A stretch of DNA of 64,000 bases, taken from the NCBI GenBank assembly GCA_022925895.1, contig JAKSYS010000004.1:1-64000 (forward strand), in the 5' to 3' direction. Below the pieces are notes generated by a model. It was not told the DNA's origin, made no database searches, and worked only from the letters and a program-made list of their open reading frames with translations. Positions 29,831 to 58,200 of this stretch are shown piece by piece; positions within the stretch are counted from its first letter, which is position 1; each line of letters begins with the position of its first letter. The translations under genes and the position numbers were made by a program. The DNA comes from Fragilaria crotonensis (taxonomy: Eukaryota > Bacillariophyta > Fragilariophyceae > Fragilariales > Fragilariaceae).

Positions 29831-29875
29831 CGACACTGGCAGGACTCGAACCTACGCGGGATAAACCCAATTGAT

Positions 29876-29906
<31 letters not shown>

Positions 29907-29912
29907 AGTGTC
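29831..29912 (-). tRNA. tRNA-Ser (anticodon AGA)
   Basis: On the minus strand the acceptor arm GACACTG pairs with CAGTGTC and is followed by discriminator G, as expected for serine. The D arm is TGGCCGAGCGGTTAAGGC. The anticodon arm is ATTGA-CTAGAAA-TCAAT with anticodon AGA. A long variable arm (TGGGTTTATCCC) follows, and the T arm is GTAGGTTCGAGTCCTGC. The length is 82 nt without CCA, as usual for a class II tRNA. No intron is present. A T-run (ATCTTTTGC) just downstream can stop Pol III. Confidence 0.95.
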
Positions 29913-30116: not shown

Positions 30117-30659
30117 ATGAATCGCTATATCCTCCTCGTCATCACCCTCCTCTTCCTTCCTGTATCAACCTTTGCTGAAACTCTCACGGGAAAGATCATC
30201 TCGTGCAGTGGGTGAAAGTTGAACCGCTACCCTCACCTCAAGTCTTTTTTGAAAGACTTTGAGGCAGAAGAGTACAGAGGTGTAGCAGTTCAGTTCGTTT
30301 CTGGCAAGCCTGCCGTCCTCTCCATCTATTCCGATGGCGATCTGAAGGAGGAAGTCGATTTGTATCAGTATGTTTCCAAGGAGGAGCTCCACAGGCTGAT
30401 GGTGGAGAAAGGATTCATACGCATGTCTCCAGATGAGGTTCTCGCGATGAAGGAGCGCAAGGCGGTGGAGCTAGCAGAAGAACAAAAACGTCGCGTGGCG
30501 GAGCGTGCATACTACCGAGAGGAGTCGAAAAAAAGACGAGATGCAAAGCTGTCGGCTCAGAAGGCGGAGTTAAAGGCTGCAGTGGAGAAAGAACAGGCGG
30601 CGGCGGGGGGGGGAGCAGGTCAAGGTTGGTGTTGGGGAGGAATTGTAGAGTCGACCTAG
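30117..30659 (+). CDS. SelM/Sep15-like selenoprotein with in-frame TGA (Sec33)
   Basis: The ATG at 30117 opens a signal peptide (MNRYILLVITLLFLP... ending SFA). Then comes C30-S31-G32-Sec33, encoded TGC AGT GGG TGA (TGA at 30213-30215), followed by LNRYPHLKSFLKDFEA and VQFVSGKPAVLSIYSDG, then VEKGF. This is the thioredoxin-like Sep15/SelM fold, whose redox motif is CxxU. Reading through TGA gives 180 aa. The paralogue at 31412 has TGC at exactly this codon. A Lys/Glu-rich helical tail follows. The run of nine G at 30605-30613 shifts frame relative to the paralogue: the shared ending VGxGEEL plus stop lies in the +1 frame, ending at 30648. SelM-type proteins act in ER redox chemistry. A candidate SECIS lies at 30686-30736. 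A simple nonsense pseudogene is the main alternative. Confidence 0.85.
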
Positions 30660-30685
30660 AGCAGAACATTTATTTCTGGCATTTT

Positions 30686-30736
30686 CTGCGAATGACACAA
30701 TCCCGTACCATCAAGGAAGTGGTTGTTGAAATGCAG
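30686..30736 (+). promoter_or_regulatory. Candidate SECIS element (SelM-like, CC apical loop)
   Basis: This lies 27 nt after the stop codon. A basal stem CTGC (30686-30689) pairs with GCAG (30733-30736). A UGA (30693-30695) faces GA (30728-30729), which would form the non-Watson-Crick quartet. Helix II pairs ACAATCCC with GTGGTTGT with one mismatch. CC at 30708-30709 lies 12 nt after the UGA, where eukaryotic SECIS elements have AA or, in vertebrate SelM, CC. The fold was drawn by hand. The basal stem is short, so this is a candidate only. Confidence 0.5.
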
Positions 30737-31411
30737 GTGTTAAGAAATTTAGTTTTCAACTTTTTGCCCCAGCAGGTTACAAGGTTAGTTGACACTGATA
30801 GACGAACGCCCTTGGCCTGGAGTAGCAGTAACATCACCTGATCTGGCCTTTGTTTCCAAGCCTGACACCAGCGCCGGTCAATAATACTATGAAACCAGAT
30901 AGAAAGGGCTTAATGACTTTATTTGACGATGAAGCTGATAATTGCGGGTTGCTATGAATGGGAAATGACCATGGTGAAGGTCAAAGGAAAGTGTAGGAGG
31001 AAGCAGTTAAGTAGTGTGGGAAGGTACTTCCGGTAGTATTGCTCAGCAACATTTGCTTGTCTCTTGGATTGGGATGTACTACAAAGAGCATACGCATCAT
31101 ACGTTGTTCGGGTTGGCAGAGGTCAAGATATGTCCTGATGCACTCTAACGCTACTAGGATGTTGGGGCGGTGAGATGTGCCGTTGTTCGTTACCGGTATC
31201 ATAGTAGAAGTACTACGAGACTCCGTACTCCAGTACAGTAGACTAGTAGTTTTAGGAGTTGTGAATAGACCAATACACACATGTACCGTAGTATGACATA
31301 CGCATCGGAGTAGTGGTACAGTTGTACAGTCGGCTGCGGTCTGTGTGTTATGCATTCAAAAGGCTGGCTCCAATTCACCTAAAATTCATTTTTGGAGTCG
31401 TCGATTCGACA
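30737..31411. other. Intergenic region between the two SelM-like genes; no gene seen
   Basis: The left part (to about 30860) has counterparts after the second gene (for example CCTGATCTGGCCTT near 30837 and 32350), so it belongs to the duplicated unit. GTAC-rich words and runs like AGTACTACGAGACTCC occur at 31190-31320. The rest presumably holds the promoter of the second gene. Confidence 0.45.
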
Positions 31412-31924
31412 ATGACGCCCCATCTCCTCCTCGTCCTCATCCTCCTGTTCCTTCCTCCTTCTATCCTCGCGCAAACTCTCACAGGGGTGATCGTCTCGTG
31501 CAGTGCGTGCAAGTTGAACCGCTACCCTCATCTCAAGTCGTTCTTGAAGGACTACGAGGCAGAAGAGTACAACGGTGTCGTGGTTCAGTTCGTTCCTGGC
31601 AAACCTGCCGTCCTCTCCATCTATTCCGATGGTACACTGCAGGAGGAAATCGATTTACATCAGTTTGCTTCGAAGGATGAGCTCCACGCGCTGATGGTGG
31701 AGAAAGGTTTCGTACGCATGTCGTATTTCGAGGTTCAAGCGATGAAAGAGCGGAAGGCAGTGGAGCTGGCAGAAGAACAAAAACGTCGAGAGGCGAGGCG
31801 TCCGTACGAACAACAGGAGGCGATCAAAAGACGAGATGCAAAGATGGCCTATTGGAAGGAGGTGTTGAAGGAAAAGGCTGCGGCGGGAGAACAGGTAAAG
31901 GTTGGTGCTGGGGAGGAACTCTAG
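31412..31924 (+). CDS. SelM/Sep15-like protein, cysteine form (Cys33)
   Basis: The ATG at 31412 gives 170 aa with a signal peptide (MTPHLLLVLILLFLPP... ILA). The redox motif is C30-S31-A32-C33 (TGC AGT GCG TGC), then LNRYPHLKSFLKDYEA, VQFVPGKPAVLSIYSDG and LMVEKGF. It is collinear with the Sec gene at 30117, about 1.3 kb upstream, including the same start context and the charged helical tail. The protein ends GAGEEL, which resembles the C-terminal ER-retention signals (KDEL type) of lumenal proteins. A thioredoxin-like redox role in the ER is the family expectation. The tandem pair arose by local duplication. Confidence 0.87.
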   Translation: MTPHLLLVLILLFLPPSILAQTLTGVIVSCSACKLNRYPHLKSFLKDYEAEEYNGVVVQFVPGKPAVLSIYSDGTLQEEIDLHQFASKDELHALMVEKGFVRMSYFEVQAMKERKAVELAEEQKRREARRPYEQQEAIKRRDAKMAYWKEVLKEKAAAGEQVKVGAGEEL

Positions 31925-32744
31925 TGTCGCCGTTAGAGAAGACATCTATTTCTGGCTCATTCTGAGAATTGGATGATCCCTTCTAATGACAGGAGAGGAC
32001 GTGGTTCTTGTGTAATCGTTCTTTCAGCTGGCCAAAAGGCTGTGTCGGTGAAAGAAAGGGCTGAGGCGGAAGTATGGGACATTGGGCAGCACGTGTTTTG
32101 TCACCATCTGGGAGATGAACAAGTCTGACCTCTTCTGCGATGGACACAATCACATACCTTCGAGGAAGTGGTTCTTGAAACGCAGAGATGTGATGAAAAT
32201 CTTACAATAGTTCTTATCGTGTACTAGGAGCAGGTTAGTATTACACTCCTGCAGACAGGAGACCAGACGTAGTACCGTAGCTTGTTGATCTTCACCTCCA
32301 TCGGCAAGTGACAATTCCTCATGTAGCACAGTAAAGCTAAAGTTACTCCTGATCTGGCCTTCAACTAGTTGGAGCTGCATGCATATCTCCACTCCTTCTC
32401 CACTCCTAGAGTAGACCTACTTTACTCTCTCTAACGAGGGTTGGGTGTCGGGTCCAACGTCTGGCATAACGTCTGGCATAACGTCTGGCATAACGTCTGG
32501 TACACCGAGTACACAGTACTCCAGTACTCCAGTAGTGAGAACACCGTACCCCGAACCATCTTCTGTACTCCAGTCAAGACTCCAGACTCCAGAGCTCCAG
32601 AGTCCAGAGTGACTGGGAGGACAGGTGATGCATATGATTACCTGGTACTTGCGTACTTCCACCATTGACAAGAAAGAGTTCAACTCCTCCAGTATGGACC
32701 AAAACGGGCAGTAGCGAGGGGCTACTCGTATTGGCTGTTTAATG
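31925..32744. other. 3' flank of the Cys SelM-like gene, with decayed SECIS-like hairpin and a short tandem repeat
   Basis: No further gene is seen. At 32135-32185 lies a clear homologue of the SECIS candidate after gene 1, with the same CTGC/GCAG stem and CC. The quartet UGA is changed (CGATGGA instead of GAATGACA). At about 32457-32500 a 12-bp unit (AACGTCTGGCAT) is repeated four times. CCAGTACTCCAGT-like words follow near 32520-32600. Confidence 0.6.
32457..32500. repeat. Four tandem copies of a 12-bp unit
   Basis: AACGTCTGGCAT is repeated head to tail, and the last copy is incomplete. No coding or structural meaning is apparent. Confidence 0.8.
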
Positions 32745-54750: not shown

Positions 54751-55074
54751 TGCAGGGACACGTGTGCACATAGTATTGAAAACAAGTTAGTAAATGGACG
54801 CACTTATCTGACTTAAAAGAGGGATCCAATGATATTGGATGGGTTGGCCAAAACCTTTGAATTTGAGGGGTCTACTGCACATCTTGCCCTCCAGCCCGAA
54901 CGGTTGCCTTGGTCTTTCAGTGGTGTGCTCGTGGAGTCCATATTCCAGTGTTTGTACTCCGTACTGTAGTACTCTAGGTAGTATCATATGGGTGCTGAGT
55001 CCCAGCACCGCAGAGTACGATATCGCTCCATATTTTTTTCACGTCGCATCTCACATCTCTTCTCACACTTGGTC
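54751..55074. other. 3' flank of the Ala-Pro-Thr gene up to copia IV; no gene seen
   Basis: A GTACTCCGTACTGTAGTACT stretch lies at about 54955. Nothing else is recognised. Confidence 0.4.
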
Positions 55075-55079
55075 GCACC

Positions 55080-55255
55080 TGTTGATCACGATGATGTCGA
55101 CATAAAGGTGAGCTACATAAATTATGGTAATGTTGTAGCTGGACTTGGGAGTGGAGCCATTGAGTGGCCTTGGTGAAGGTCATTGGCGTCTGGCATAATG
55201 ACCGACGCTCTGACGCGGTTGTGGACATTGGTTTCCAGGCTGCTGGGAATTAGCA
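55080..55255 (-). repeat. 3' LTR of copia IV
   Basis: It is identical in sequence to 60368-60543 as read. The pol frame runs a short way into it. Confidence 0.9.
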
Positions 55256-58200
55256 CACCCTCACCGGCAACCGAGTTAGGCGATGGAGCGCGAGGGGTGA
55301 CGAGCGTATCTTGAAGACATTCAAAGTAATTGCGTGACGGATTCGTGACGGCATGCAAATAGCTGGATCGAATTTCTTGGTGATGAGAGGCTGGATGATG
55401 TTTCGTGAAATAGTCGGCCTTGTTGAGTGCACCGCGACGCCAGTAAACAATGAATTGACCTTGGCGAACGCGGTCACGGACCCAGTAAAAACGCATGTCG
55501 ATGGCCTTAGAGCGGCGTTGTTTCATGGTGTCGTTGGCGATACCGGCGGCCGTGTTATTGTCAGTGACAATAGGAGTGGGGGGCTGGGGATGTCCAAGTT
55601 CCTCAAGGCAGGTACGCAGGGGACAGGCCTCTTTCCCGTTGTGAAATAAAGCGGCGAGCTCGGCTTCGGCGGCACTGGACACGACTTCCTTCAGGATTTG
55701 GCAAAGGACATTAATGGCGCCATTTCCAGGGGGAGGAGTGGCGTTGGCGGGAGGCGGTTTGGTTGGATCGGGAGGGCGACTGCTTAGGTAATGGTAGCCA
55801 GCGGCGCGGGACCGTGACTTGGGAGCAGAGAGGTAGGAGGCATCACTTTCAACGTGGAGTACCATGTCGCTGCGCACGTAGCGGACAGTGGCCTCGGGAT
55901 TGCTTGCCGCATAATTAAGGAATTGCGTGAGGGCGTGCATGGTTGATTTTGTACCGTGGGCCTGTTGTGTCGCGAGTGTGCCGATGGCAGTTAGCACGGT
56001 GGAGTCAACGGCACGAGCATAATAGAGGAACGTGCCGAGCACTTCTTGGACGCGTTTGGTGTCAGCAAGGTCAAGGGCAGGTGATGCATCCGGCAGTGGT
56101 GTGAGCTGTTGCTTGGCACCAAAGGTGGGCTTGATATACGCATGGGGAATGTTGGGCAACAGTGGGTGTTGTGTGTTGAAGCGTTTAAGTGCCCGTGCAA
56201 CGTAGCCGGGAATGGATATATCGACGGTGCCTCGGGTATAGTCCCAGTTGAGCGTGAGGCCGCAGTATCGCGCGCCGGTCCAATCCTCCGAGACGGCGTA
56301 TTGTAAGCGGAGGGAGTTCATCAGGTGCTCGGCGTCTTCGCGGCGTGTGTATTTGACCCCGAAGTCGTCGACGACGAGTGTGAAGGCGATCGGACGGGAG
56401 GCGTGGCGCCAGAGGCCGGGGGTGAGGGGGGCAGGACTATAGCCGTGGGGTTTCAGGAAGTCGGCAAGGCGGTCGTTTGCCAGTATGCCAGCTTGCGGTA
56501 ATCCGTACATGCCTTTTCGGATCTCGACATAGACATGGCCGTTGTGAATGAGTGGCGTGAGCTGGTAGTGTTCCATGATTGCGGGAGGGATCATGGAGAT
56601 GGGGATGCGCATATACTCATATTCGGTCATGGGTGTGCCGAGATAAAAGTCTTTCAGATCGCCCGTCATGAAGCGGCCATTCACGGTAGAGATGACACTG
56701 TTGAGCATGGTTTTGACAGTAGTGAGGTCGGCTGTCTTGGTGCTGACGTTGCCATCGTATTCGATACGGTCGCCACCGACAGTGATGCGAACGCGACGGG
56801 GGTTGCTTTTTTCGGGCCGTAGGGCTGCGACGACGCGAATGTACGTTGGCTTTTTATGTTTAGGGATATCGCGTACGGCAATGAAGTACATGGTGTTTGT
56901 GCCGGTGGGCATGGTTGCGTGGCCTTGGCAGAGGCGTCCGAATTCGTCGGTCATGGATGCGATCCATTCGGGCCCTTCGCTGCTGCGACTGAGTTCCGGA
57001 TATTCGGCAAGTTGGCCGGTATCAGGATTGAATGCATTGCCGTGCAGCGCGTAGTGGGCGGGATGGGCAGAGTGGGCGGTGACTGCTGTGGCGGCCAGAT
57101 GGGCGGGTGGTTTGCGGCGACGTCGTGACCGGCGTGTGGCGGTAGCGTATGTGATGGGCGCGCTCGACAAGGGGGGGGATGGTGGCAGCTCCACCCTCAG
57201 AGGTGCGGCAAGGACTGCGGTCGGAGGCAGTGGAGGTGGCGTGAGGGGTACGGGTGCGGGCTCGGTAGCGTCGTCGACGTGCACGAGGAGCGGTGATGTT
57301 GGATGCGCGGCTGGGGAAGGTGCCGGCAGTGGACTTGGCAGCGGTGGTGTAGCCGTGGGAGCGCAAATGTTGCTGAGGAGATTGGTGAGGAGCTTAAGGG
57401 AAGCGACTTGACTAGCAGTAGTGGGCGCAAGTGCGGAGCCGGGGGATGGATTGGAGAGTGCATGGTGAATGTCGGCAATGCCCGCAAGGACCAGATCGGT
57501 GGAGGATGCAATGGGCATCGGGATCTGTGTCGGAAACCAGACGAGGGTGTCGGAGATTCGAGTTGCGCGGGAGTCGAACATCCAGACAGAGTAGCAGCGG
57601 TAGGAGTCGAGGGCAGGACCCACATACCAGCCGTCCAGTGCGTGGGGTGCCCAGGTGCCGCGGGTAGCAGGCTTGTCATGAACGAGTACGCGTATGCCGG
57701 GGGGAGCAATGGGAGTGCGATTGAAATCGAATTGCCCGTGGAGCTGTGACCAAGCGGACAGCTTTGGATTGATGCGGGAGCTCCGAAGCAGGTTGAGTGT
57801 GACAAGAGCCTGGGGGAGGAGACGATCCCAGAGGTGGAGGGGGAAGTGTTTGTCGACACTGCAAAGGCCCCCTATGAAATGATTTTTGAAGGTGCGGATA
57901 GCACGTTCGGCGGCATTGCGGCGATGGACACCGGGTGGTGCAAGCTGAAAGTCAATTCCCTCGTCGTGAAGGAAACTTTTGAGCGGTGCGGAGCATTCGT
58001 TGTCGAGGCGTTGGAGAGCAGGGCGGAGACCTGCATTACATAACTGGGTATGCAAGGTTTTATAGCCTTGTAGAATTGCGTGGGCACTGCGATCCCGAAT
58101 TGGCTCTGCGAGAATGCAATTGCTGTCATAGTCATAGACAATGATAAGGTAGTTATTCCCAGTGCTGGATGGCGTGATAAAACGCCCAGTTTGATCTGAG

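Follow-up and report, generated by a model that had tools for sequence, protein, structure and literature searches.

Tandem SelM-type genes of the diatom Fragilaria crotonensis with a probable selenocysteine codon in one copy and a cysteine codon in the other

The genome of Fragilaria crotonensis carries two adjacent SelM-type genes that differ at codon 33, which is an in-frame TGA in the first (gene 1) and TGC, encoding cysteine, in the second (gene 2). The TGA is best read as a selenocysteine (Sec) codon, based on purifying selection downstream of it, the start of most homologue records past this codon, a gene encoding eEFSec, and two further genes, SelT-like and glutathione peroxidase (GPx), with TGA as the catalytic codon. 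Altogether, it is very probable that a SelM gene duplicated in tandem, and that gene 1 kept Sec together with its SECIS element, whereas gene 2 exchanged Sec for Cys and its SECIS element decayed. The window analysed here is a stretch of 64,000 nucleotides (bases 1-64000 of contig C548, which has 402,767 bases), and the assembly searched comprises 62,107,879 bases in 881 contigs.

Gene 1 (positions 30117-30659, forward strand) encodes 180 residues as printed, with the TGA read as U, and matches the Pfam family Sep15_SelM (PF08806) with 48.4 bits and an E-value of 9.9e-13 (cut-off 26). Its TGA at 30213-30215 (forward strand), aligned with the Cys of gene 2 and of the homologue P0002, is the sole in-frame stop upstream of the TAG at codon 181. 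Gene 2 (31412-31924, forward strand) encodes a Cys paralogue of 170 residues ending in GEEL, with the TGC codon 33 at 31508-31510 (forward strand). It scores 53.8 bits against PF08806 (E-value of 2.1e-14; same cut-off), and its nearest solved structure is SelM (PDB 2a2p, E-value of 1e-7), compared to a weaker match to Sep15 (PDB 2a4h, E-value of 0.022). SelM proteins bear a CxxU or CxxC motif, in contrast to the CxU motif of Sep15. The two genes have CSGU and CSAC, respectively, both of the SelM type, with Gly in gene 1 and Ala in gene 2 beside the Sec/Cys residue; CxU is also the motif given for SELENOF in the available part of PMC7539508. The earlier note, made from the letters of the window, had placed TGA and TGC at the same codon within a C-S-x-(U/C) motif of the Sep15/SelM fold, which proved exact for both codons and correct for motif and family. 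An assembly-wide search with PF08806 (62.1 Mb; 3 candidates, all 3 scored) found two matches, which are genes 1 and 2. Similar to SELENOM (PF08806, PDB 2a2p), the pair has the Sep15/SelM domain, CxxU or CxxC, and in gene 2 a putative ER-retention-like tail at the C-terminus, which is -EEL or -DEL in most homologues. It differs from SELENOM in a long charged C-terminal coil and in the tail of gene 1, which is out of frame in the assembly.

The printed frame of gene 1 closes at the TAG at 30657-30659, and its final ~15 residues have no counterpart in the homologues. The homologous end (...GEEL, followed by a TAG at 30646-30648) lies in a different frame, past a run of nine G (G9, 30605-30613, forward strand) from which the tail is out of frame compared to all homologues. 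This frame fault is either a draft-assembly error or a real allele. The genome of F. crotonensis SAG 28.96 is described, in the available part of PMC9476933, as 61.85 Mb in 879 nuclear contigs with a BUSCO completeness of 81%, from nanopore and Illumina data. The span 30117-31924 given in the earlier note encloses both genes but does not account for this different end of gene 1, nor for the relevant 3′ elements, one of which (30684-30737) sits in the gap between the genes and the other (32133-32186) past the end of the span. Immediately upstream of gene 1, a tRNA-Ser (AGA) lies on the minus strand at 29831-29912.

The DNA of the two genes is identical at 461 of 589 positions (78%) in a BLAST alignment that runs from ~11 bases upstream of the start codons to 30693 and 31969, respectively, in the 3′ regions. 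Over codons 34-145, they differ by 22.25 synonymous changes at 72.5 sites and 33.75 non-synonymous changes at 263.5 sites, with a dS of 0.395, a dN of 0.14 and a dN/dS of 0.36 (Fisher p of 0.001, from rounded counts), and over codons 34-100 the dN/dS is 0.28. These low ratios indicate that the part past the TGA remains under selection as protein. Codons 1-32, mostly a signal peptide as judged by eye, are little constrained (dN/dS of 0.71), so that the proposed conservation of both flanks of the TGA stands for the downstream flank and poorly for the upstream one.

Two protein searches (14 of 358 and 16 of 611 candidates) gave 20 distinct homologues, of which P0001 is gene 2 itself. Among the other 19, a single one from another source (P0002, a Cys protein of 85% identity) has Cys at the position of codon 33, four have W (P0004, P0008, P0009 and P0014), and 13 have their first residue at codon 35 or beyond. 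In five of them it is codon 35 itself, two codons past the TGA (P0003, P0005, P0006, P0007 and P0016). In addition, P0013 starts by eye at codon 33 and has a disrupted frame, and the record P0019 carries the name of Skeletonema marinoi. Judging from protein records only, we take the late starts and the W residues as the outcome of how gene callers handle TGA, although records may also begin late for other reasons.

For the Sec machinery, eEFSec is encoded on contig C415 (18640-19104; PF21208, E-value of 4.1e-26). Its 710-residue frame matches both PF21208 and PF21131, and among solved structures the eEFSec chain 5izk (E-value of 2.8e-124) is far closer than the best SelB chain 4ac9 (E-value of 1.5e-44). 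A SelD-like protein of the Cys type, fused to a pyridine nucleotide-disulfide oxidoreductase domain (C753:64624-65583), exceeds the cut-offs of TIGR00476 and TIGR03169. Its top score is to TIGR04369, “fusion_not_SelD” (367 bits, under the cut-off of 700), and therefore we do not regard it as proving that Sec is synthesised. The genome search with two SepSecS families had no first-look candidates, and the Rfam tRNA-Sec model gave only four sub-threshold matches in the genome (53 of 5073 candidates scored), all on the organelle-like contig C881 (150 kb), which ARAGORN called Leu, Leu, Ser and Gly. Two patterns of the tRNA-Sec anticodon and T-loop had no hits and 51 hits, respectively, the latter compared to 11 in a reversed control. 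ARAGORN found no tRNA at 46 of these 51 places (30 and 15, plus one inside the window); the other five, on C424, C473, C522, C575 and C577, lay outside its scan, and their matched letters repeat those of a scanned place. Several pattern hits are repeated letter for letter on two or three contigs (such as C98, C129 and C242), as if haplotype duplicates remain in the assembly. The earlier note had held that a genome devoid of Sec machinery would refute its reading; eEFSec is present, whereas the searches of this draft assembly did not find tRNA-Sec, and its draft state may or may not be the reason why tRNA-Sec and SepSecS were missed.

TGA also occurs at Sec positions elsewhere in the assembly. 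Among four matches to PF10262 (Rdx), two lie on the same strand of contig C173, 19.5 kb apart (54882-55295 and 74351-74758), and form a second Sec/Cys pair, which we take to be SelT-like. One copy reads CVG-TGA and the other SEEC without a stop; in the latter, the first Cys of the motif is also lost. The two paralogues share 111 of 151 residues, with a dS of 0.30 and a dN of 0.15 in the last exon. Directly 3′ of their stop codons, the stretch AATGAC...TTGATAATG is kept in both; its folding energy is -11.8 kcal/mol for the Sec copy and -7.8 kcal/mol for the Cys copy, and it fails the strict SECIS rule. In addition, one of seven GPx matches (C76:97959-98174) carries TGA as its catalytic codon (NVASQ-TGA-G). 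Another GPx that appeared to hold two TGA codons (C282:57705-58029) is of the Cys type (NVASEC) and loses its frame midway; its TGAs are out of frame, and it is not a selenoprotein.

Behind gene 1, a SECIS candidate at 30684-30737 (forward strand) fits the rule NTGA-(10-13)-AA/CC-(15-39)-GA, taken from the available part of PMC2375036, with the quartet ATGA at 30692-30695, CC at 30708-30709 (spacing of 12) and GA at 30728-30729 (spacing of 18). It is the only candidate under this rule in the 750 nt of 30651-31400. Dinucleotide shuffles of this 3′ region contain some candidate in 55 of 200 cases and an equally stable one in 11 of 200, so the structure taken alone is weak evidence. The comparison with gene 2 appears stronger: a separate BLAST match aligns 30675-30736 with 32124-32185 (51 of 62 identical, E-value of 4.5e-13), scoring 71 where shuffles reached 24 at most. 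The putative degenerate copy at 32133-32186 (forward strand) is identical to the candidate at 45 of 54 positions and keeps 14 of the 15 stem pairs, two of them via changes from G-U to G-C and from U-G to U-A, whereas one C-G pair has become C-C. It retains the CC, which mammalian SelM SECIS elements also carry, and has TGGA (32141-32144) in place of the quartet ATGA; the spacing rule yields no candidate in the 750 nt 3′ of gene 2. The stretch at 31942-31969 (forward strand), up to the end of the BLAST match at 31969, seems to be a colinear remnant of the sequence directly preceding the SECIS candidate (score of 31 against a shuffle maximum of 23), and from there to about 32123 the gene 2 sequence has no significant match in the 3′ region of gene 1. 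A dispersed-repeat origin of this conserved island was rejected, as a genome DNA search matched the island itself only; that search is insensitive, since the copy 3′ of gene 2 escaped it as well. No further copy of the island was found downstream of gene 1 (499 of 500 shuffles were as good), and the idea that the SECIS stretch was duplicated in tandem within the 3′ region of gene 2 was set aside as weakly supported (score of 27, reached by 1 of 500 shuffles).

The TGA might encode Sec while the conserved island is some other UTR element, the real SECIS being non-canonical or located elsewhere, which we regard as unlikely. It would agree with the Rfam model SECIS_1, which has no match in the window stretches around the two genes, behind the SelT-like TGA gene, or in the genome (133 of 1211 candidates scored), and with the 11 shuffles of equal stability. 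The spacing rule likewise finds no SECIS in the 1460 nt past the SelT-like TGA gene or the 1634 nt past the TGA codon of GPx, and does pick out a weaker one (-7.8 kcal/mol) 3′ of a Cys GPx gene; either SECIS elements in this species depart from the rule, or the element behind gene 1 has been misread. Moreover, a short exact match of 14 bases occurs further downstream too. Against these points, the quartet and both spacings behind gene 1 fit the published rule, the sole rule-fitting place in 750 nt coincides with the conserved island, and the quartet is among the bases changed in the Cys copy. If the 3′ element were not a SECIS, the “fossil” argument for the direction of the exchange would fall.

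That gene 1 is dead or truncated, with the TGA as an ordinary stop, the tail also out of frame and gene 2 alone working, is very improbable. Two frame faults within one gene and the failure to find tRNA-Sec in the draft assembly would fit such a gene, whereas the purifying selection past the TGA argues against it, as do the same break at codon 33 in many relatives and the short branch of gene 1, which is 97% identical to P0010 over 105 columns. The tail fault, for its part, falls in the G9 run of a nanopore-based assembly.

With the TGA of gene 1 read as Sec, the likely history starts from an ancestral diatom SelM selenoprotein gene, with an in-frame TGA and a 3′ SECIS, that would have duplicated in tandem. 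Gene 1 would have retained both features, with Sec inserted at codon 33 via eEFSec, and its product would be a thioredoxin-fold oxidoreductase of the ER lumen, its redox pair being CxxU. In gene 2, a single substitution from TGA to TGC would have replaced Sec by Cys, after which the SECIS would have been free to decay, the present copy being devoid of the U of the core quartet. A change from Sec to Cys after the tandem duplication is the most likely direction, since a SECIS-like element whose core is broken is to be expected behind a Cys gene if that gene once had Sec, and is otherwise unexplained; gene 2 combines the Cys codon at the Sec site with such a degenerate element, subject to the SECIS reading. 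Sequence evidence supports all three proposals of the earlier note, namely the SelM identity, the Sec codon and an exchange of Sec and Cys between the tandem paralogues, the direction of which that note had left open.

The opposite direction, in which a Cys SelM gene acquired a TGA in gene 1 beside a pre-existing SECIS, is likewise very improbable. A single substitution suffices either way, and the phylogeny leaves room for it: in an unrooted tree of 18 proteins, built on the columns after the Sec codon with P0001, P0012, P0013 and P0020 left out and with several deep branches weak and long, the Cys pair of gene 2 and P0002 is unsupported as a clade (76/42). This direction would nevertheless not account for the SECIS-like copy 3′ of gene 2, and it contrasts with the 13 of 19 other homologue records that resemble TGA genes and with Thalassiosira pseudonana, reported to have two Sec SelM genes (PMC2375036, available part). 

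In the same tree of 18 proteins, gene 1 clusters with P0010 (support of 83/92), and gene 2 with P0002 and P0003, the latter starting after the codon (99/96). This grouping suggests that the duplication, here taken as one followed by a change from Sec to Cys, predates the separation from the source of P0002; codon 33 may have changed only afterwards, within the gene 2 line. With a dS of about 0.4, the exchange is not very recent, and the notion that it was caught “in the act” is too strong, given also the Cys protein P0002 in another source. Relatives of the two genes were absent at the DNA level from viral contigs and prokaryote genome contigs.

Read-through of the TGA as a residue other than Sec, for instance Trp, is extremely improbable despite the W in 4 of the 19 records, since this W is presumably the output of a gene caller applying a TGA=Trp code, the site aligns with the redox Cys/Sec, eEFSec is present, and TGA recurs at the Sec positions of other families in the assembly.

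The pair has several counterparts among known algal systems. Similar to F. crotonensis, the diatom T. pseudonana has duplicate SelM genes among its selenoproteins, but both are reported as selenoproteins in the part of PMC2375036 at hand, whereas here one copy has Cys and the two are adjacent. The accessible part of PMC7539508 describes, in the diatom Fragilariopsis cylindrus, a duplicated GRX gene with one Sec and one Cys copy and homologous flanks, and links Sec-Cys substitution to duplication. That is another family, and the SelM pair differs in being in tandem with both 3′ elements comparable base by base. The same part reports a SECIS that persists in a Cys-PRX gene of Symbiodinium minutum, in addition to earlier reports; this resembles the SECIS trace 3′ of the Cys homologue found here, except that in F. 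crotonensis the intact counterpart adjoins. Clusters of selenoproteins of the same family are reported there as well, for SELENOW, SELENOU and PRX. Titles and abstract openings on tandem Sec/Cys pairs of SelM, on selenium and F. crotonensis, and on Sec/Cys paralogues under selenium deficiency contained nothing on this pair. Algal Sec/Cys duplicates are already published, and the SelM pair is a new and legible example.

Adjacent copies with alignable 3′ elements make the changes on leaving selenium readable, namely those in the codon, in the core of the SECIS and in the motif neighbour (G to A). The SelT-like pair adds a second case in the assembly, so that this species would lend itself to testing why Sec is retained or given up. 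It is conceivable, though doubtful, that selection keeps such pairs in at least two redox families, SelM and SelT-like, with the selenium-independent Cys isoform standing in when selenium in lake water is low. Diatom SelM records in databases are often cut at the Sec codon: the 13 that begin past it (P0003, P0005-P0007, P0010-P0012 and P0015-P0020) are probably truncated annotations.
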